Shown piece by piece: positions 202-8,945 of a stretch of 46,518 bases of DNA. The notes under the pieces were generated by a model. It was not told the DNA's origin. It saw only the letters and a list, made by a program, of their open reading frames with translations, and made no database searches. The DNA lies in NCBI GenBank assembly GCA_025965155.1, contig JAOPXN010000121.1, positions 1 to 46,518 on the forward strand, in the 5' to 3' direction. A program made the translations under genes and the position numbers. The stretch's first letter is position 1; each line of letters starts with the position of its first letter. The stretch comes from Propionibacteriaceae bacterium. GTDB taxonomy: Bacteria; Actinomycetota; Actinomycetes; Propionibacteriales; Propionibacteriaceae.

Positions 202-256
202 AAGTGACAGTTTCGTGGGTGAAGCACGCCGGTGGTTGATGAGAGTGCGGGTTCGC

Positions 257-295
257 CTTGAGGAGATCTTGAGCCAATCTTGAGATGACGCTGAG
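257..295 (+). promoter_or_regulatory. Array of 11-bp-spaced CTTGAG repeats (candidate OmpR-family regulator site)
   Basis: CTTGAG occurs at 257-262, 268-273 and 279-284, with a degenerate copy GCTGAG at 290-295. The period is exactly 11 bp, so every copy faces the same side of the helix. OmpR/PhoB-type regulators bind head-to-tail direct repeats with this spacing, and an OmpR-family regulator is encoded 1 kb away at 1329-2213. No gene starts close downstream; the next features are the hairpins at 391-458. Binding by that regulator is inference. Confidence 0.55.
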
Positions 296-458: not shown

Positions 459-564
459 CCTACGTTGCTGCCCCGGAACGGTGCCCGCACGGGGCATCAC
501 GGTCCCGGCTCCACACCACGCCATAGTCGGCCTTCAGCTCGATCCCAGCTCAGCCTGGTGCGAT

Positions 565-581
565 CTTGAGCAAATCTTGAG
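565..581 (+). promoter_or_regulatory. Second CTTGAG direct-repeat pair, 11-bp period
   Basis: CTTGAG at 565-570 and 576-581 repeats the motif and period of the 257-295 array, and the surrounding bases are also alike (ATCTTGAGC then AATCTTGAG). It lies about 125 bp before the 37-codon ORF and 240 bp before the HPt-like gene, a suitable position for activating their promoter. The likely ligand is the OmpR-family regulator of this locus; that link is inference. Confidence 0.55.
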
Positions 582-819: not shown

Positions 820-1371
820 ATGTCCACACCACCGGGGGGCGGTGTGGGCGACAGCACGCAGCAGTTCTCGGGGGGGAACGCTGGCGTCAGCGGAGATCAG
901 GGCGAGGCTGTCCGGGGGGACGGACTCGCTCGCCGGACCGGCGAGCTATCGGGGAAGCGGTCCGGAGAGGGCAGGTCGGTCTCGACGCAGGCGTCGGGGC
1001 CGATCGGCCCGCAGCTGGCGAAGCTGTACGAGGAGGTCGGTCGCGACGAGCAGATCGTCGCACGGTTCGTCAGCGACTATCTGTCATTGTTGGACAGTAG
1101 GATCTCCACGATCTTCGCCGATCTGGCCGACGATGACGACGAGGCGCCGCTCATATCGCTACTCAGCCTGGAGACCACTAGCGTGATGATCGGGGCCGTC
1201 GGCGTGGTCGAGGCAGCTCGCGCGCTACGGCTGGCCGTCGAGGACAACCACCGGTCGGCAACGCACGCGCTTTTCGACGCCCTGCTTATTGAGGCGGCAG
1301 CCTTACGGGCCGACCTGGAACGGGCCGGCTACTCCGCGAGCGACCCACCCGCGGAAGCCCGGGAAGGTTGA
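820..1371 (+). CDS. HPt-like protein lacking the phosphorylatable histidine
   Basis: This is a 183-residue protein. The ATG at 820 is preferred over the upstream ATG at 796 because GGGAG (810-814) sits 5 nt before it. Residues 1-60 are low-complexity, rich in Gly, Ser and Gln, and probably disordered. Residues about 63-165 look like a four-helix HPt domain: the stretch SLETTSVMIGA fits the active-site helix of HPt proteins, which normally reads H-x-L-K-G-S-x-x-x-x-G. The His position is Leu115 and the Lys position is Glu118. If the fold is right, it cannot relay phosphate through that residue and may instead dock a REC domain. Its 3' end overlaps the convergent OmpR-family gene by 43 bp. The family call rests on pattern only. 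Confidence 0.55.
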   Translation: MSTPPGGGVGDSTQQFSGGNAGVSGDQGEAVRGDGLARRTGELSGKRSGEGRSVSTQASGPIGPQLAKLYEEVGRDEQIVARFVSDYLSLLDSRISTIFADLADDDDEAPLISLLSLETTSVMIGAVGVVEAARALRLAVEDNHRSATHALFDALLIEAAALRADLERAGYSASDPPAEAREG

Positions 1372-2213
1372 GGCATCGCCAACCGGTAACCAACGCCACG
1401 GACGGTTTCCACGTACCGGGGCGAGCTGACCGAGTCCTTGAGCTTGCGCCGCAGGTTCGCCAGGTGGACCTCGACGGCCCTGCGGTCGGACTCGCTGACA
1501 TAGCCGCCGGACACGTCATCGCCGCGAAGCTCAAGTGCCAGGGTGTTCTTGGAGATCACCCGTCGCTGCCCCTGGACGATGGTCAACAACAACTCGAACT
1601 CGCTCCGGGTCAGGTCCACCGGGCCGCTGTCGTTCTCGCACAGCCGCATCTCGGGATGGATTCGGAGGCCGTTGTGCTGCAGCCACCCTTCGTCCTCGTC
1701 GGCGTTGCCCTGGCCGCCCGGTTGGGACGTCGCTGACCAACCGACCGGTGGCGGGACGGTCTCCGGCGAACTTCCCGTTCCGGCTCCGATCGGAAATCCG
1801 ACGGCCTCGGGGTAGCGCCGCAGCATCGCCTCGACGCGCGCCCGCAGCTCACGCGGACGGAACGGCTTGGTCAGGTAGTCATCGGCCCCGGCGTCGAGAC
1901 CCATCAAGGTGTCGATCTCCTCCATCCTGGCGGAGAGCATGATGATGTAGGTCGAGGAGAAGGAGCGGATCCTGCGAGCCACCTCAAACCCGTCGATTCC
2001 AGGCAGGCTGATGTCGAGCGTGGTTAAAGTCGGCTGGTGCTCCCGGACGGCCTCGACGCCGTCGCTCCCGGTGGCCGCGGCGAAGCAGGTGAACCCCGCC
2101 TGCCCGAGAATGGCTTCCAGTAGGTTGCGGATGTCCGCATCATCCTCGATGACGACGGCGGTGCGTCGGGGAGCTTCTGTCATAGCAGTCACGTGTCCAT
2201 TTAGGCCGGTCAC
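1329..2213 (-). CDS. OmpR-family response regulator
   Basis: This two-domain DNA-binding regulator has a receiver domain at residues about 18-130, with the acidic pair in IEDD, phospho-acceptor Asp67 (in TLDISLPG) and the conserved Lys in LTKPF. A winged helix-turn-helix follows at about 185-285, ending in the typical VRGVGYRL. The linker between the domains is long and rich in Gly, Pro and Ser. The start used is a GTG whose last bases overlap the stop of the acyltransferase gene (GTGA), which implies translational coupling; an ATG at 2183 would remove ten residues and is also possible. It is the last gene of the operon headed by the hybrid kinase, its most likely partner. The CTTGAG repeats at 257-295 and 565-581 are candidate targets. 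Confidence 0.9.
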   Translation of the reverse strand: MTGLNGHVTAMTEAPRRTAVVIEDDADIRNLLEAILGQAGFTCFAAATGSDGVEAVREHQPTLTTLDISLPGIDGFEVARRIRSFSSTYIIMLSARMEEIDTLMGLDAGADDYLTKPFRPRELRARVEAMLRRYPEAVGFPIGAGTGSSPETVPPPVGWSATSQPGGQGNADEDEGWLQHNGLRIHPEMRLCENDSGPVDLTRSEFELLLTIVQGQRRVISKNTLALELRGDDVSGGYVSESDRRAVEVHLANLRRKLKDSVSSPRYVETVRGVGYRLAMPQPSRASAGGSLAE

Positions 2214-2791
2214 CCGAAGGTGGCGTTGTAGTAGGTCTGGGTATCAATCTTCTCGACGGTGACGTCGGCTAACCGGTGCAGCATCATCTCGATGTGGTCC
2301 CCGAACCTGAACGTAGCGTTGTTGTAGGCGCACACGTCATAGGCGCAGACGGCCCTAGCCTCCACCAGCCGCTCCACCACTGCGGCGAGCATCTGCACGA
2401 ACAGCCGAGACTGGCGCTGGCCCGGGTGAGCCAAGGTGAAACCCAGGTAGTACACGGCGTTCCGTGCGGCGGCTTCGGGGAAGTTTACCTCGAAATACTC
2501 CGGGCTGACCCAAGGTACCGACGCCAGCTCCCGGGTCAAGGTGGTCAGACCGATCGGCTCGCCATCTAAGTCCCATGCTACGTACTTCCAGATTCGCGGG
2601 TCGGCCATCTCGGCGATGAACTCGTCGTGATGCAGCACCTGCCGGGCAACCGCCCGGGAACGGAGCGGGCCGAAGGCAGTCAGGTAGAGCTCCCAGAACA
2701 TCTCGGCATGCCACGGATCGATGCGGGTCTCGACGGTGATGCGGGTGTCTCCGTGGCTGGCTCGACGCGGCCGGACGATCTGATCGGTCAT
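2210..2791 (-). CDS. GNAT-like N-acyltransferase
   Basis: This 193-residue protein looks like a single GNAT-type domain: a helix near residues 25-45, a central strand around the phrase KYVAWDLDGEPIG, and a strand-loop-helix around YYLGFTLAHPGQRQSRLF, where GNAT enzymes bind the acyl-CoA pyrophosphate. The canonical R/Q-x-x-G-x-G/A loop is not clean, so the subfamily is unknown. Its ATG overlaps the stop of the decarboxylase gene (ATGA), and its own stop overlaps the response-regulator start. This tight coupling suggests it acts on the decarboxylase product, for example acylating agmatine, but the substrate is inference. Confidence 0.65.
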   Translation of the reverse strand: MTDQIVRPRRASHGDTRITVETRIDPWHAEMFWELYLTAFGPLRSRAVARQVLHHDEFIAEMADPRIWKYVAWDLDGEPIGLTTLTRELASVPWVSPEYFEVNFPEAAARNAVYYLGFTLAHPGQRQSRLFVQMLAAVVERLVEARAVCAYDVCAYNNATFRFGDHIEMMLHRLADVTVEKIDTQTYYNATFG

Positions 2792-3333
2792 GACTGGTCC
2801 CAGGCCGACGATCGGTAGGTCGCGATCACAACGGCCGCCACCGGATGGTCCACGCAGGTCGCTGAGGTCAGGACGGTGCCGGCCGGGTGGTACATCCCGC
2901 CACGCCCCAGTGACAAGTCCTCCAGGCTGGCAGCCAGCTCACGTTGTACGGTGCTCTGGGTGCTGCCGTGGTGTTCCACGAACAGCCCGGCACAGGATCC
3001 GTCGTCGCGCTGGGACCATGCCACACCGGCCCACGCCTGCTCGCCCGGGGTACTGGCGTAGGCGTCGGCGTAGACGCAGTAGAGCGCATCGCCGTGGGCC
3101 CCCGGCAGCTGGTCTGGGCCCGCCACCTCGACCACATGACTTCCCGGGGGAATTACTGAGCTGAGCCGGATCAGGTTGAAGTCCGCCACCCCGGCGTCGC
3201 GGAGGGCAGCGTCGAAGGCCGACAGCCGGGTCCGGCCGAAGCCGGTACCGGAACTGACCCGAATCGTGAGGGCGTTCCGTCCGTTGATCGGAGCCATGTC
3301 GCCAGCCTTTCTGCCTTTGATCACAGTCAGCAT
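2788..3333 (-). CDS. Pyruvoyl-dependent arginine decarboxylase (PvlArgDC)
   Basis: The family converts L-arginine to agmatine and CO2 using a pyruvoyl group made by self-cleavage. The sequence shows SSGTGFGRT near the N-terminus, then NLIRLSSVIPPGS, the cleavage motif; the serine that would become pyruvoyl is Ser59 in this numbering. The conserved VEHHG segment follows later. The ATG at 3333 is chosen because AAGGAA lies 4 nt upstream, giving 181 residues, a normal length; an ATG at 3297 is a second option. The frame stays open upstream to 3456, but that would overlap the kinase gene and add no family-like sequence. It lies between kinase and acyltransferase genes in one operon, an unusual setting for a polyamine enzyme. 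Confidence 0.85.
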   Translation of the reverse strand: MLTVIKGRKAGDMAPINGRNALTIRVSSGTGFGRTRLSAFDAALRDAGVADFNLIRLSSVIPPGSHVVEVAGPDQLPGAHGDALYCVYADAYASTPGEQAWAGVAWSQRDDGSCAGLFVEHHGSTQSTVQRELAASLEDLSLGRGGMYHPAGTVLTSATCVDHPVAAVVIATYRSSAWDQS

Positions 3334-3442
3334 GTGTTCCTTTCGTCCCGAGCAGGCGCCATACAGGTGCATTTCTTCCACACCCGGTCGAATGATCCGC
3401 AACCGGCCCCATTGCCTGGGCTGCGGATAGTTTCTCGCATCG

Positions 3443-6364
3443 CTAGCTTTGAACATGGACGGGGACCTGGGCGCTCGAGATCCCTCCGTCCTCTACATCC
3501 CGGCCGGTGGTCACGCCGAGCAGTTCGAGCACCCGATCCTCCAGCTGCTGCGGGCTGGCCCGTCCCTTGGTCAAGAAGGCAGTAGGGCCCAGCCTGAGGC
3601 TGTCCCTGGCCTTGTCGTCGATGTCGACGGCGCTGTAGACGACGACGGGCATCTGGGCCAGCCGCTGGTTGCGTCGGATCTCCGCTACCAGCTCGATGCC
3701 ATCCCCGTCCGGCAGATGTAGGTCCAAGATCATGACCTGTGGCTGGATCGTTCGGAGGTGCCTGAGCGCCTCGACCTTGGTAGCAGCGTAGTAGACGGTC
3801 AAACCACGACGCTCGAACAGGGTGCGGATCACGTTGGCCAGGTCGCGGTCGTCCTCCACCAGCAGCACGGTGCCCCGGGCGGGGTGATCCGCGATGGCCG
3901 CCGCCACCGTCTGGCTCAGCCGCTCCTGGTCGACGGGCTTCACCAGCCAGCCGGCCGTCTGAGACTCGAGCCCAGCGTGACCGCCCGGGCTCAGGCCAGA
4001 CACCACGACGACAGGGATGTCCTGCGTTTCTGGTCGACGCTTCAACGCGGCGACCACGTCGCCGCCCGAGGTGCCCGGCATGACCAGATCCAGCAGCACC
4101 GCGGCCGGCTGCTCGAGGGTGATCAGCTCCAACGCTTCGTGCCCGGTGCTCACGCCGACGGCACGATATCCCCGCTGCTGGAGGACCTCCGACAGCACCT
4201 CGACCACGTACTCGTCGTCGTCGCAGACGATCACCAGCGGTCCGTGGCTGCCGTCGTCGACGTGGTCGGACTCCGTGACCCGGGGAAGCGTGAAGCGGAA
4301 GGTGGTGCCCCCGTTAGGGTTCCTCTCAGCCCAGATGCGCCCGCCGAGCCGCTCGATCAGACTCCGGCTGATGGCCAGGCCGAGCCCGGTGCCGCCCTTC
4401 TCCCGCGCATCGGAGGAGTCGACCTGCTCGAAGCGGGTGAAGACGCTGTCCAGCTTGTCGGTGGGGATTCCACGACCTCGGTCGACGACGCTGAACTGCA
4501 CAAAGGCCCCTCGGACGGCGGCAGCCACGATGACCTGGGAACCTGCTGGAGAGAACTTGATGGCGTTTCCCAGCAGATTGATGAGGGTCTGTACGACCCG
4601 GTCCGCATCGGCATGCACCCGCCCGTTCACCGAGCTGGTGACCACGGTGACTCCGGCCTCCGCAGCCAGCACCTGGACCTGAGCCATTGCGGCCTCGATC
4701 AGTACCTGGGCGGTATGGTCCCCAACCTCCATCGGCAACGCTCCGGACTCGATCCGTTCGATGTCGAGGATGTCGTTGATCAACCGGGTCAGCCGCTCGC
4801 TGCTGTCCAGGGCGATGTCAATCATTCGAGTGGCTCCCGGCGGCAGCACGCCGAGCGCTCCTCCCGCGAGCAGCCCCAGCGAGCCCCTGATCGAGGTGAG
4901 CGGGGTACGAAGCTCGTGACTGACGATGGAGACGAACTCGGTTTTCAGCCGGTCCACCTCGCGGCGTTGGGTGACATCGCGGAAGACAACGACAGCACCC
5001 TCGACCGAGATGTCGCTCGTCAGTGGGCTAGCTGTGACCTCGACCGGGATCTCGCGCCCGTCGGCTCGGACATAGATGTCTTCCTCGGCGCTGCTGACGA
5101 TGCCTTCGCGGATGGCCTCGGAGATGTAGCAGGACTCGGCAGGGAACGGGGTGCCGTCTTCCTGGTTGGCGTGGAAGATCACGTGGGCGTCTTTACCGAT
5201 CAAGTCCTCCGGACCGTAACCAAGAGTCTTGGCCGCCACCGGGTTGACGGAGGTGATCAGCCCATCCCGGTTCACGCCGTAGATGCCGTCAGCGACCGAG
5301 CTGAGCAAGAGCTCACTGCGCCGGGTCAGGCGCCGCAGGTCGGCGGTCCGCTCGGACACCCGGCGCTCCAGGCCCTGGCGCAGGCGTTCGTTGTCGATGA
5401 TCAACACCGTTTGCCGGGTGGCGACCGCGATCAGCACAAGGAGCCAGGCCACCGTGGTGGCCGTACCAAGTCCGGTGGGCCCCACCTGGACCAGCCGAGT
5501 GACACCCGCGCTCAAGAAGATGCTGAACATGACCACGGTGCCGAAGACGGGTGAGCCCTCCTTTGGCACCTCCGCGTGGTGCGCAACGGACGCGGCGTGG
5601 TGTCGGGCGGCGAGTGCGATCAGGACGTAGCCGGCGATCCAGCCGACGTCGACCGGGGTGCCGAAGGTGAACGGTCCCTGCGCCGTCAAGACGGCGAAGG
5701 CGATGTCGGAGAGGGCGTAGAGGGCAAAACCGGCACTCACCAGAGCCAGCGCGGGCCTGTCGTCGCGGCTGCTGCGCAGAATCAACAGTGCGGCGAGGGT
5801 GGCCACCACCACGTCGACGAGCGGCAGCACTAACGAGGTGAACCGTTGCCGGAAGGGAACGTCGCCGGTGGCCAGCACCTGCGGGTACACCGTCAGGCTC
5901 ATCATCACCAGGGCGGATCCGCCGATGACTACGCCGTCCAGAACCATCCGCATCAGCTCCGTGCCGCGGCGCGGCACCGATGGGAACGCGATCAAGCCGA
6001 CGATGCCGAGTAGCAGCGCGGCGATGAAACCGATGTCACCGATCTTCAACGTCTCATCGGAGGCACCGGCGAGACGGGCGATGATCACAAAGGTGTTGCC
6101 GAGTGCGGCGACTGCGCCAGCGGTGGCGAGGAACATCCAGGCGCGACGTCGACGACCGACGGACCGAAGAAAGCGGTGGCCGCAGCTCGCCGCTGCTGCG
6201 AGGCCGCCACCGAGCAGCCCGATATCACTGATCAGCCGGCGAGGCTCCGCTGGCAGGTCACTTGCCAGGAGCAGCGCAAATGTCGTCAGGACGACCGCAG
6301 CCGTCAGACACATTGATCGGAATCGCCAAGCCCCCGGTACTTGGGGACTGGACAGTCCCTTCAT
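3443..6364 (-). CDS. Membrane-bound hybrid sensor histidine kinase with two receiver domains
   Basis: The 973-residue protein has about ten hydrophobic segments in residues 15-325, forming an integral-membrane sensor region. A short coiled linker and a PAS domain (about 345-465) follow, then a dimerisation domain with phospho-acceptor His483 in VSHELRTPL, an ATPase domain with a GTGLGLAI box, and two receiver domains with phospho-acceptors Asp759 (LLDLVMPG) and Asp881 (ILDLHLPDGDG). Two receivers after the kinase core imply a phosphorelay needing an HPt protein, and one is encoded nearby at 7025-7414. It heads the operon with decarboxylase, acyltransferase and OmpR-type regulator. TATCTT lies 7 nt before the ATG, so transcription may be leaderless. 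The sensed signal is unknown. Confidence 0.93.
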   Translation of the reverse strand: MKGLSSPQVPGAWRFRSMCLTAAVVLTTFALLLASDLPAEPRRLISDIGLLGGGLAAAASCGHRFLRSVGRRRRAWMFLATAGAVAALGNTFVIIARLAGASDETLKIGDIGFIAALLLGIVGLIAFPSVPRRGTELMRMVLDGVVIGGSALVMMSLTVYPQVLATGDVPFRQRFTSLVLPLVDVVVATLAALLILRSSRDDRPALALVSAGFALYALSDIAFAVLTAQGPFTFGTPVDVGWIAGYVLIALAARHHAASVAHHAEVPKEGSPVFGTVVMFSIFLSAGVTRLVQVGPTGLGTATTVAWLLVLIAVATRQTVLIIDNERLRQGLERRVSERTADLRRLTRRSELLLSSVADGIYGVNRDGLITSVNPVAAKTLGYGPEDLIGKDAHVIFHANQEDGTPFPAESCYISEAIREGIVSSAEEDIYVRADGREIPVEVTASPLTSDISVEGAVVVFRDVTQRREVDRLKTEFVSIVSHELRTPLTSIRGSLGLLAGGALGVLPPGATRMIDIALDSSERLTRLINDILDIERIESGALPMEVGDHTAQVLIEAAMAQVQVLAAEAGVTVVTSSVNGRVHADADRVVQTLINLLGNAIKFSPAGSQVIVAAAVRGAFVQFSVVDRGRGIPTDKLDSVFTRFEQVDSSDAREKGGTGLGLAISRSLIERLGGRIWAERNPNGGTTFRFTLPRVTESDHVDDGSHGPLVIVCDDDEYVVEVLSEVLQQRGYRAVGVSTGHEALELITLEQPAAVLLDLVMPGTSGGDVVAALKRRPETQDIPVVVVSGLSPGGHAGLESQTAGWLVKPVDQERLSQTVAAAIADHPARGTVLLVEDDRDLANVIRTLFERRGLTVYYAATKVEALRHLRTIQPQVMILDLHLPDGDGIELVAEIRRNQRLAQMPVVVYSAVDIDDKARDSLRLGPTAFLTKGRASPQQLEDRVLELLGVTTGRDVEDGGISSAQVPVHVQS

Positions 6365-6474
6365 GACTGAGAAGATATCATCGACAGGCGATCCGCCGCA
6401 TACCTGAGCACCGGCTAGCTCCGGTTGGACCGCCGCGGACCCCGGCTGAGCCCATTCGGGCTGCCTCGTCGGTA

Positions 6475-6518
6475 CCCGAGAGGGGTGGATCCGAGTAGGA
6501 TACCCCTGTTGGCTCGGG
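6475..6518. repeat. Bulged 12-bp inverted repeat in the divergent intergenic region
   Basis: CCCGAG plus AGGGGT (6475-6486) can pair with ACCCCT (6502-6507) and CTCGGG (6513-6518), leaving a 5-nt bulge. It lies between the divergent kinase operon and the REC/HPt pair, in about 280 bp otherwise free of recognisable features. It could be an operator, or a folded 5' leader of the gene at 6645. TAGGAT inside the loop resembles a -10 box, which would argue against an RNA role. Confidence 0.3.
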
Positions 6519-6644
6519 GGTCAGCTATCTACCTACGTCCCCGTGGTCCATGCCCCGGCTGCATGTTCCACGGTGTCCTTTCGGCCCCCAGCGAGACAGC
6601 CACGGTCGCCGCTTGGGATGCAAACCAGGAGAGCGAGGCGGTCC

Positions 6645-7025
6645 ATGAGTGCCCTGCGGCGCGTACTCGTCGTTGACGACGACGACGCCATCCGAGAAGT
6701 GGCCCAGATGGCGCTGGAGATTGTCGGCGGGTGGGAAGTTCGGGCGGCGTCCTCAGGTGTCGAAGCCGTGCAACGAGCCACCGAAGAGGCCCCCGATGCA
6801 GTCCTGCTGGACGTGATGATGCCGGGGATGGACGGGCCCACGACCTTCAGCCGGCTACGGGAGTGCCCGCAGACCGCCGCCATTCCGGTCATCTTCTTGA
6901 CCGCGAAGGTGCAAGCCGGCGACCGCCGCGCCTGGACCGAGCTGGACATCGCGGGCGTCATCGCCAAGCCCTTCGACCCGATGACGCTGGCGTCAGAGGT
7001 CTCCCACCTCCTTGGCTGGAACTGA
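6645..7025 (+). CDS. Single-domain response regulator (REC only)
   Basis: A 126-residue protein made only of a receiver domain: acidic cluster VVDDDD, phospho-acceptor Asp in LLDVMMPGMDG, Thr in FLTAK and Lys in AKPFDP. The ATG at 6645 is preferred over an upstream frame-open ATG because it starts right at the domain, with GAGG 6 nt upstream. The stop overlaps the ATG of the HPt gene (TGATG), so the two are probably made together. With no output domain, it probably shuttles phosphate or acts by protein contact. It is divergent from the hybrid kinase operon, the likely phosphate source. Confidence 0.9.
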   Translation: MSALRRVLVVDDDDAIREVAQMALEIVGGWEVRAASSGVEAVQRATEEAPDAVLLDVMMPGMDGPTTFSRLRECPQTAAIPVIFLTAKVQAGDRRAWTELDIAGVIAKPFDPMTLASEVSHLLGWN

Positions 7026-7414
7026 TGGCCGAGCCCGGACCCGGGTCATCGGCCGACCCGGAGGAGGTACGGGCCAAGGCCCTGGATGTCTTCCGCACCA
7101 TCGGCGCCTCGGCGGTGCAGTCCAACCTGGAACGGATTGCTCGACTGGAAGAAGCAGTGACGGCCGCCGACGAGGGACGACTCGACCAGCCCGGTCGTGA
7201 CCGTGCCGGCCAACTGGCCCACACCATCGCGGGCTCCGCCGGAACTTTCGGCTTCTCGGCAGCCACCGGCCCTGCACACCAGCTGGAGGACCTGTTCCGG
7301 ATGGACCGGCGGGGCGTCGACGAGCTTGGGTCCGCGGAGCTGGGCACCGCGCGGCAGCTGCTTGCCGAGCTGCGAGCCGTTCTGGCCGCAGCCCCGGAGG
7401 AGGACGACTTCTAG
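7025..7414 (+). CDS. HPt domain phosphotransfer protein
   Basis: This 129-residue protein carries a canonical HPt active-site helix, LAHTIAGSAGTFGF, with the phospho-accepting histidine at His66. It follows the REC-only regulator with a one-base stop/start overlap. Its family passes phosphate between the receiver of a hybrid kinase and a downstream receiver; here the hybrid kinase at 3443-6364 and the regulators at 6645 and 1329 are the obvious partners. It contrasts with the HPt-like protein at 820-1371, which lacks the histidine. The gene ends in a CTAG that also holds the stop of the convergent rhomboid gene. Confidence 0.88.
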   Translation: MAEPGPGSSADPEEVRAKALDVFRTIGASAVQSNLERIARLEEAVTAADEGRLDQPGRDRAGQLAHTIAGSAGTFGFSAATGPAHQLEDLFRMDRRGVDELGSAELGTARQLLAELRAVLAAAPEEDDF

Positions 7415-8013
7415 ACAGATACCGGCACCCGGCGCGGGCTGCGTCGATGCAGCAGCCAGGCTGCCAACACACCGCCGACCGCGCCGCCGAGGTGGGCTTG
7501 CCAGGAAATGCCCGCCTGGTTCGGCAGAATGCCCCAGATCATGCCGCCGTAGACGACCATGATCACCACCGCGAGCAGCACCTGCGCCGGCTTCCTGGAC
7601 CACAGACCCCGGGCCAGCAGGTAGGTCAGCCAACCGAAGATCAGACCGCTGGCGCCAAGGATGATGGTGTTGGCGGGGGTCAGTACCCACGCTGTCAACC
7701 CGGAGGCGACGATGCTGATCAAGGAGGAGAGCAGCCAACGGGCCAGTCCGCCCAGTAGCACCAGGAACCCTAGAACCGCAAAGGGTACGGAGTTGCTGAT
7801 CAGGTGGTCCCACCCGGCGTGCAAGAACGGTGCAGTGAAGATTTCGGGTAGTCCGTCCACGTCGCGCGCGTGGATGCCGTAGTAGTCCAGCCGGTTGCCG
7901 CTGAGCTGGTCCAGCGCCTCCAGCGCCCAGAGTCCCATCAGCAGCAGCACCATCACTGCCGCCGCCCCAACCGGCCTGTCCAACCCGCCTCGGTGGGTCG
8001 TTGACTTGGTCAT
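7411..8013 (-). CDS. Rhomboid-family intramembrane serine protease
   Basis: The predicted 200-residue membrane protein has about six hydrophobic segments and the rhomboid catalytic pair: Ser122 in GASGLIFG and His174 in WQAHLGGAVGG. It cleaves transmembrane helices of other proteins within the membrane. The length is typical of a minimal bacterial rhomboid, with no extra cytoplasmic domain. The ATG at 8013 is chosen over a GTG at 8022 because GAGAGG lies 8 nt before it. The stop shares a CTAG with the convergent HPt gene. Substrates cannot be predicted. Confidence 0.88.
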   Translation of the reverse strand: MTKSTTHRGGLDRPVGAAAVMVLLLMGLWALEALDQLSGNRLDYYGIHARDVDGLPEIFTAPFLHAGWDHLISNSVPFAVLGFLVLLGGLARWLLSSLISIVASGLTAWVLTPANTIILGASGLIFGWLTYLLARGLWSRKPAQVLLAVVIMVVYGGMIWGILPNQAGISWQAHLGGAVGGVLAAWLLHRRSPRRVPVSV

Positions 8014-8108
8014 GATCAGCACCTCTCTTCACACCGACCCGGTTTCCCTGTCGGTCTCGACTTCCAGGGTGCCTGCCCCACTCAAACCGGCGGTCACCCA
8101 GGCGGGGG

Positions 8109-8846
8109 TCAGACCAGGCCCGAGGTGCCGAGCGCCGACCCGACCAGGTACGTAGCGGCCAACGCGATCGCGCCGCCGATGACCACGCGCAGCGTCGGCC
8201 GCAGGAGCCGGCTTTGACCCAGGTAGGCCCCGGCCGCCCCGGTCAGCGCAAGCGCGACCAGCACCGCGACCATCGTGGCGGGCACTCGGAGGTCGGACGG
8301 CGCGATCAGGATGGCCAACAAGGGCAGCAGCGCACCGATGGTGAACGCGATGCCGGACGCGAAGGCGGCGCGCCAGGGGCTGACCACATCATCGGGGTCG
8401 ATGTTCAGCTCGGCAGAGATATGCGCGCGCAATGCGTCCTTCGCGGTCAGCTCCTCGGCCACCTGACGGGCGGTTGCTGCGCTCAGCCCCTTCTGCTCGT
8501 AGATCCCGGCCAGCTCGAGCAGCTCCTGCTGCGGCATCTCGGCCAGCTCACGCTTCTCCTTGGCGATCAGCGCCCGCTCGCCGTCCCGCTGGCTGCTCAC
8601 CGAGACGTACTCACCGAGCGCCATGGAGATGGCGCCACCGACCAGACCAGCGACTCCGGCAGTCAGCACCGGTCCGAGTGATGGTGTGGCGCTGGCCACA
8701 CCGACCGTGATGGCGGCCACCGAGACGATGCCGTCATTGGCACCGAGCACGCCGGCGCGCAGAGCGTTGAGCTTGTTGTTGACCCCACCATTGTGTGGCT
8801 CGTCGGGATGGGCCTCGTCGGGATGGGCATTGTCGATGCTGCTCAT
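8109..8846 (-). CDS. VIT1/CCC1-family metal (Fe/Mn) transporter
   Basis: The protein has about five membrane helices. It starts with NALRAGVLGANDGIVSVAAI, the signature of VIT1/CCC1 transporters, has the conserved GEYVSVSSQRD after helix 2, and carries a cytoplasmic metal-binding helical insert rich in Glu (residues about 95-150). The family moves ferrous iron or manganese out of the cytoplasm or into stores. The N-terminus contains HPDE repeats encoded by two perfect 15-bp tandem repeats (8799-8828). The ATG at 8846 is preferred; a GTG at 8900 is in frame, but neither has a strong ribosome site. It is divergent from the oxidoreductase gene at 8998. Confidence 0.88.
   Translation of the reverse strand: MSSIDNAHPDEAHPDEPHNGGVNNKLNALRAGVLGANDGIVSVAAITVGVASATPSLGPVLTAGVAGLVGGAISMALGEYVSVSSQRDGERALIAKEKRELAEMPQQELLELAGIYEQKGLSAATARQVAEELTAKDALRAHISAELNIDPDDVVSPWRAAFASGIAFTIGALLPLLAILIAPSDLRVPATMVAVLVALALTGAAGAYLGQSRLLRPTLRVVIGGAIALAATYLVGSALGTSGLV
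8799..8828 (-). repeat. Two perfect 15-bp tandem repeats inside the VIT1-type gene
   Basis: The unit at 8799-8813 is repeated exactly at 8814-8828. It encodes successive HPDE-type units at the protein N-terminus. Being in frame, a change in copy number would lengthen or shorten a His/Asp/Glu-rich segment that could bind metal. Confidence 0.7.
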
Positions 8847-8945
8847 GCGCCTGAGTGAAGCACGACCAGGTGCTGCCTCACCAGGCAGGGAAGCGTGCAC
8901 CCGCGCAGGGTCCCATCGGATGATTGCCTAGGGTAGTCACCGGAC

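Follow-up and report, generated by a model that had tools for sequence, protein, structure and literature searches.

A conserved actinobacterial gene module joining a decarboxylase, a GNAT-fold protein and a membrane sensor, and its possible role in signalling

The locus described herein lies at positions 820 to 7,414 of a stretch of 46,518 nucleotides (the window), which is part of a 4.49 Mb Propionibacteriaceae genome. It brings together the genes of a pyruvoyl-dependent decarboxylase of the PvlArgDC family, a GNAT-fold protein, a hybrid histidine kinase with a ten-helix membrane sensor domain and several proteins of a phosphorelay. This locus is one instance of a genuine, conserved module, in which the GNAT-fold protein is the constant part and the decarboxylase, the sensor and the output are exchanged around it. 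We give an even chance to the reading that this is a synthase–receptor signalling module, whose decarboxylase and GNAT-fold protein would together produce a modified amine for the sensor to detect.

Linkage of these genes was assessed in a neighbourhood survey that covers Actinomycetota. In Propionibacteriales, a GNAT profile built from 19 rows (A1) matches 34 of 293 genomes and the Pfam family PF01862 matches 33; both occur in 32 genomes, in which the two genes are adjacent (Fisher p 3e-39, relatedness ignored). Among the 34 matches of this search, 33 adjoin a decarboxylase gene and all 34 lie near a sensor gene. Across the phylum, the same profile finds 19 places in 18 of 396 genomes, 13 of them beside a decarboxylase and 19 near a sensor gene. 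A second profile (A8), applied to another order (that of genome G227), finds 17 places in 16 of 198 genomes, five being its own seed loci, with 10 places beside a decarboxylase and 16 near a sensor gene. The three search sets overlap. Over the 73 loci examined, a kinase or GGDEF/EAL domain lies within 4 kb of the GNAT gene in 72, and a decarboxylase adjoins it in 64, a count that includes linkage by construction, 19 of the 73 loci having first been found through their decarboxylase. In total, the window's genome gives 13 matches to HisKA and one to GGDEF, so that a sensor gene near a random place (about 4%) is not expected by chance; other genomes will differ. Accidental neighbours are excluded by the recurrence of the gene set across genomes. 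The gene content that a first-pass annotation had assigned to this locus (kinase, decarboxylase, GNAT, OmpR, REC, HPt and histidine-less HPt) is borne out by Pfam, a structure model and motif comparison, and its gene order is conserved in related genomes.

The 73 loci comprise 41 with PvlArgDC and a kinase, 11 with PvlArgDC and a GGDEF(-EAL) protein, 11 with a PF02784-type enzyme and a kinase, one with a PF00282 enzyme and a kinase, seven with a GGDEF-EAL protein and no decarboxylase found, one with a kinase and no decarboxylase found, and L183 with nothing. The latter was rejected as a family member (21-bit match, ordinary coenzyme A (CoA) loop, neither a sensor nor a decarboxylase found linked to it). 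L174 was counted under GGDEF, the automatic call having taken another kinase that lies closer; in L106, Pfam recognised the kinase, which was below the threshold of the automatic call; L024 was left out as lying on the same contig as L030; and L040 and L151, which have PvlArgDC and no match to this GNAT profile, are not among the 73. Three loci (L101, L103 and L104) stand at contig ends. Weak matches in G051 (L157) and G244 (L153) have none of the module parts, that in G499 (L152) has kinase-like stretches only, and a plasmid search with the GNAT gave no match.

Propionibacteriaceae loci usually run from kinase through decarboxylase and GNAT to OmpR; REC and HPt genes are transcribed divergently from the kinase gene, and one for a histidine-less HPt is close by. 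A second Propionibacteriales family (f2) accounts for 22 loci (L109–L128, L154 and L155), which have a lone REC near the GNAT, and no OmpR gene of the window's type was found near the GNAT in them. A third form (L037–L039, L107 and L108) combines a large kinase with a GNAT extended by a long C-terminal stretch, which gives weak Acetyltransf_1 matches in L038 and L039 and none in L037; the kinases of L039 and L108 contain REC and HPt domains (Pfam). The GNAT gene of L108 (G041) is directly preceded by that of a PF00282 decarboxylase dependent on pyridoxal phosphate (PLP), and that of L107 (G059) accompanies a kinase, with no decarboxylase found beside them. The 19 places of the phylum search are the window, L089 (a GGDEF protein with PvlArgDC), six GGDEF-EAL loci in which no decarboxylase was found (L090–L093, L095, L096), and eleven loci that combine a kinase with a PF02784/PF00278-type PLP decarboxylase (L094, L097–L106). 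In the order of G227, ten new loci (L172–L176, L178–L182) carry PvlArgDC, the GNAT and a ten-helix GGDEF-EAL protein; L177 carries no decarboxylase that was found. PvlArgDC was also encountered beside a radical-SAM gene: in G039 the decarboxylase adjoins such a gene, with no GNAT match, and in L040 (5,630–8,427) the PvlArgDC gene is followed by those of a radical-SAM/SPASM protein and a 251-residue protein without a Pfam match, a different decarboxylase cassette.

The exchange of parts can be followed on a tree of 72 GNATs, obtained by a quick method with only SH-aLRT (Shimodaira–Hasegawa-like approximate likelihood ratio test) support. The PF02784-type loci form one supported side (SH-aLRT 99), the PF00282 locus L108 is nested among those with PvlArgDC, and L089, with its GGDEF output, falls among kinase loci. 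The smallest number of changes counted on this tree is four for the decarboxylase (losses included), three for the output and one for the sensor. The window's kinase (3,443–6,364, reverse strand) comprises the membrane sensor followed by PAS, HisKA, HATPase and two REC domains (Pfam). Its ten-helix sensor domain (5,360–6,340, reverse strand) has no Pfam family match beyond weak hits below cut-off; it is kin to the N-termini of the GGDEF(-EAL) proteins that adjoin the same enzymes, the relationship of kinase sensor and GGDEF-EAL sensor extending through 284 columns (hhalign probability 98.6, E 6e-16). The sensor of the PF02784-type kinase loci is a seven-helix domain, not detectably related (probability 0.5). 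A membrane-protein artefact was rejected as the source of the similarity, given that unrelated seven-helix sensor controls gave probabilities of 0.5 and 0.3. A GNAT that stays constant while decarboxylase, sensor and output change around it is, we infer, best understood if the sensor's ligand is made by the enzymes. Sensors of this family also occur on GGDEF(-EAL) proteins next to these enzymes, which fits a sensor that reads the product better than a regulator that controls the enzymes.

The decarboxylase gene (2,788–3,456, reverse strand) has no settled start, which is taken at 3,456 here and was placed at 3,333 in the earlier reading. Its product falls inside the PvlArgDC family, as had been annotated, with a PF01862 score of 94.6 bits against a curated cut-off of 22.7. 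In an alignment that includes 1n2m, N47, S53 and E109 are kept in 52 of 52 decarboxylases, S52 in 51 and D35 in 49; the numbering is that of the Methanocaldococcus jannaschii enzyme, and these positions include the self-cleavage Ser-Ser pair and the catalytic Asn and Glu. With the catalytic positions of a pyruvoyl decarboxylase kept, the window's enzyme is likely active, and arginine is the best guess at its substrate from the family. Three unrelated decarboxylase types stand beside the GNAT family, namely PvlArgDC, PF02784/PF00278 and PF00282. Most of the PF02784/PF00278 enzymes, which occur in 11 loci, were identified by BLAST to such an enzyme; for the five tested, the best model is diaminopimelate decarboxylase, at 170–190 bits and below its cut-off of 297.9, and the PF00282 enzyme of L108 is below every cut-off. 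The PLP decarboxylase gene of L102 (8,563–9,307) is matched only in separate pieces and may be broken or misassembled.

The protein encoded at 2,210–2,791 (reverse strand) has no Pfam match and is assigned a GNAT fold from a structure model and fold matches. Asp152 is kept in 72 of 72 members and Tyr36 in 71, and Gln185 and Tyr187 are further conserved polar residues. A LuxI-type synthase was considered and rejected, with no Pfam match and none among the 50 fold matches listed, a capped list from which a family may be missing. There is also no match to PF21926 (FeeM) up to E 1. These GNATs may take an acyl group from a donor that is not acetyl-CoA, bind CoA by other means, or have no catalytic role.

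FeeM-type N-acyl amino acid synthases (PF21926) are themselves GNAT-fold N-acyl transferases, and similar proteins occur beside related sensors. In L151 (G490), a PvlArgDC gene, a FeeM-like gene and a PAS-GGDEF-EAL sensor gene stand together. The FeeM-like protein scores 26.8 bits with PF21926, just under the cut-off of 27, and passes that of PF00583; a PDB sequence search with a FeeM-like protein gave nothing. Searching with this protein yielded 13 matches, including its own, in 12 of 183 genomes, and the neighbourhoods of 8 of the 12 other matches were fetched. A related ten-helix GGDEF-EAL sensor adjoins the query-like protein in six of these eight loci (L196–L200 and L203), five of which pass the FeeM cut-off, and no decarboxylase of the searched types was found in the eight. 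The FeeM-side sensor aligns with that of the window at an hhalign probability of 95 (E 4e-8; control 0.3). Because FeeM enzymes make N-acyl amino acids, the ligand of the related sensors may be an N-acyl product. In L196 (8,198–8,716) and L197 (7,218–7,709), a gene for an apparently membrane-spanning protein of about 165 residues lies between the FeeM-like and the ten-helix GGDEF-EAL genes.

On the output side, the locus encodes an OmpR/PhoB-type response regulator (1,329–2,213, reverse strand; Pfam Response_reg 93.2 bits, Trans_reg_C 65.2 bits), whose start is uncertain, the GTG at 2,213 overlapping the stop of the preceding gene. It also encodes a histidine-less HPt-like protein (820–1,371, forward strand), which has no Pfam match and a conserved motif compared by eye; an alternative in-frame ATG lies at 796. 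Upstream of the latter is an operator array (255–295, forward strand) of ATCTTGAG-like direct-repeat half-sites every 11 bp, with three overlapping matches at 255, 266 and 277, and a second copy, ATCTTGAGCAAATCTTGAG (563–581, forward strand), stands about 240 bp before the ATG at 820. The pattern ATCTTGAG-N3-ATCYTGAG was derived from the window, and the other loci serve as its test. Allowing up to three mismatches, the window has 4 matches against 0.11 expected in its whole length. At the same tolerance, 10 of the 12 loci that combine an OmpR gene with a histidine-less HPt gene contain the operator, in 20 matches; every match lies upstream of the latter gene and shares its orientation, with none elsewhere in the scanned stretches. 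Shuffled controls, which kept dinucleotides for this count and for that of the window, gave at most 0.1 per locus; a further set of shuffles kept single-base composition only. L028 and L032 have weak sites only (5 and 4 mismatches, respectively), and L108, with OmpR and no histidine-less HPt match, has no operator match. OmpR/PhoB-type regulators bind direct repeats of eleven bases, and the histidine-less HPt gene is therefore the likely local target of the OmpR regulator. Two-component control of the enzymes, as the first-pass annotation had it, is not suggested: the sensor family also occurs on GGDEF(-EAL) proteins, and the only local operator found precedes the histidine-less HPt gene, not the enzyme operon.

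Between the two operator copies, positions 415–433 and 445–463 form a terminator-like 19-nucleotide inverted repeat (95% complementary), and a small RNA driven by the first array (300–465) is possible; a known RNA was rejected, the window giving no Rfam match at gathering score. The core TTGAGN5CTTGAG, a short pattern for which some chance hits are likely, also has exact matches near the start of the FeeM-like gene in L198 (7,443–7,458) and L199 (7,488–7,503) and beside the HPt gene in L022 (3,991–4,006).

Starting from what was computed (families, linkage, exchange of parts, sensor homology and the conserved operator sequence), a mechanism can be proposed that assigns substrate, reaction and product, ligand binding, the direction of signalling, the order of the phosphorelay and the operator-binding protein. 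The decarboxylase would convert an amino acid, here most likely arginine, into an amine, which the GNAT-fold protein would conjugate, most likely by N-acylation. The ten-helix sensor of the kinase would detect the product or a compound derived from it, within the cell or between cells, and phosphate would pass from the kinase through the REC and HPt proteins to the OmpR-type regulator. The regulator would then bind the tandem operator and switch on the histidine-less HPt gene, and probably other genes too; the histidine-less HPt may act as an adaptor or a brake. In other lineages, the same enzymes and sensor family would feed enzymes of cyclic di-GMP (c-di-GMP) turnover instead of a kinase. 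More tentatively, and at a likelihood that we put short of even, the module may represent a widespread and as yet undescribed class of actinobacterial cell–cell signalling. It would use N-conjugated amines made by interchangeable decarboxylases and a non-canonical GNAT, a dedicated family of ten-helix receptors and a phosphorelay or c-di-GMP output, with FeeM-type synthases as a second source of ligands for related receptors.

Several findings weigh against a synthase–receptor module, besides the linkage by construction mentioned above. No decarboxylase was found beside the GNAT in 9 of the 73 loci (L090–L093, L095, L096, L107, L177 and the ordinary GNAT L183). Among the 396 genomes of the phylum, there is no association between PF01862 (20 hits) and the GNAT (18), with two genomes sharing both (p 0.23), because most PvlArgDC genes there are without this GNAT partner. 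The window's decarboxylase misses the NCBIfam arginine decarboxylase equivalog TIGR00286 (75.8 bits against 106.95). The canonical CoA-loop motif, [RQ]xxGx[GA] between strand 4 and helix 3, occurs in none of the 72 family members (places judged by eye); some branches retain its first glycine, and the motif stands in that place only in L183. The fold search with the sensor gave no PDB match at E 0.001 or better, the best being rhodopsins at 0.04, and two of the eight fetched FeeM-search loci (L201 and L202) show no sensor and have query-like proteins without a Pfam match. The first-pass annotation had proposed that an arginine decarboxylase and an acyltransferase could yield an acylated agmatine, serving as a signal or a stress metabolite under two-component control. 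A product of the two enzymes acting as a signal is also the best reading here; as to its parts, the GNAT fold holds and acyl transfer is not secured given the missing motif, nor is arginine, with the equivalog cut-off missed and relatives using other decarboxylases.

A role in stress or amine metabolism under sensor control is an alternative that we regard as unlikely, though less so than the others. The sensor would read an outside condition such as pH, amines or energy state, and the enzymes would make a protective or detoxified amine that is not the ligand. However, the enzymes still adjoin the sensor when the output is a GGDEF-EAL enzyme, the scan shows a response-regulator match only in L174 among the ten PvlArgDC/GGDEF-EAL loci of the order of G227, and no operator match precedes the enzyme operon in any of the 12 loci that carry OmpR together with histidine-less HPt. 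Antiporter or amine-transport neighbours were not seen, in a survey without a systematic search aimed at them.

The remaining alternatives concern the GNAT-fold protein and would dispense with acylation of the amine. It could be, though this seems quite improbable, a subunit that binds the amine without catalysis and so conveys, inside the cell, the decarboxylase product's presence to the membrane sensor. The degenerate CoA loop of all 72 members points this way, as does the presence of a sensor gene no farther than 4 kb away in 72 of 73 loci, including eight with no decarboxylase found; on the other hand, the conserved Asp152, Gln185 and Tyr187 would suit an active site no less than a binding site, and FeeM-like proteins, which are presumably catalytic, hold the same place beside related sensors. 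A very improbable reading is that the protein matures or throttles the pyruvoyl decarboxylase. PLP decarboxylases need no self-cleavage, and the GNAT family adjoins them in 12 loci and stands in eight others with no decarboxylase found, which weakens such a helper as a general role, even though the GNAT gene usually adjoins that of the decarboxylase and its product is without the canonical CoA-loop motif. The precedent is PanZ, a protein of GNAT fold that both activates and inhibits a pyruvoyl decarboxylase, PanD, in a CoA-dependent manner and without any need for acetylation (PMC4410942). PanZ needs bound CoA (PMC4410942); the usual loop motif is missing here.

The locus also contains a single-domain response regulator (REC; 6,645–7,025, forward strand; Pfam) and an HPt protein (7,025–7,414, forward strand; Pfam), whose phosphorylatable histidine is invariant in 11 aligned rows, so that the phosphorelay domains HisKA, HATPase, REC and HPt are all present. 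Outside it, the contig opens with the end of an open reading frame (1–138), whose 45 residues have no Pfam match and which looks like an IS30-type transposase, and Rhomboid-family and VIT1-family genes follow the HPt gene (7,411–8,900; Pfam), neither being among the conserved parts.

Linked autoinducer synthases and membrane sensor kinases are known from LuxM/LuxN, AinS/AinR and CqsA/CqsS. As in these systems, the gene of a putative small-molecule synthase adjoins that of a multi-helix sensor with kinase output, and this linkage recurs across genomes in 72 of the 73 loci. In contrast to them, the putative synthase is a decarboxylase and GNAT-fold pair, the host phylum is Actinomycetota, and the sensor domain has no Pfam family and is common to GGDEF(-EAL) proteins. 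FeeM shares the GNAT fold and, in FeeM-like form, the neighbouring ten-helix GGDEF-EAL sensors, whereas the window's GNAT has no PF21926 match. In Vibrio, NspS/MbaA places a GGDEF-EAL protein under polyamine control through a periplasmic binding protein that reports the amine; amine input to c-di-GMP turnover would be the common feature, but in the present module the link is between a ten-helix membrane domain and enzymes that make amines. The family score and catalytic positions recall pyruvoyl-dependent arginine decarboxylase (PF01862; 1n2m), from which the window's enzyme differs in falling below the NCBIfam cut-off and in its linkage to signalling genes. PanD/PanZ likewise pairs a pyruvoyl decarboxylase with a GNAT-fold partner (PMC4410942); the present family is not restricted to pyruvoyl decarboxylases (12 PLP loci, eight with no decarboxylase found), and in nearly every locus a sensor gene lies no more than 4 kb from it. 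No description of the system was found in the open-licence literature searched, in agreement with the initial impression that the arrangement is not a described one.

If the synthase–receptor reading is true, Actinomycetota would possess a signal of new chemistry, with a new family of receptors, and an unnamed membrane sensor domain would gain a function. Furthermore, one amine pathway would be tied to both phosphorelays and c-di-GMP. The operator offers a ready reporter, which makes the model testable.

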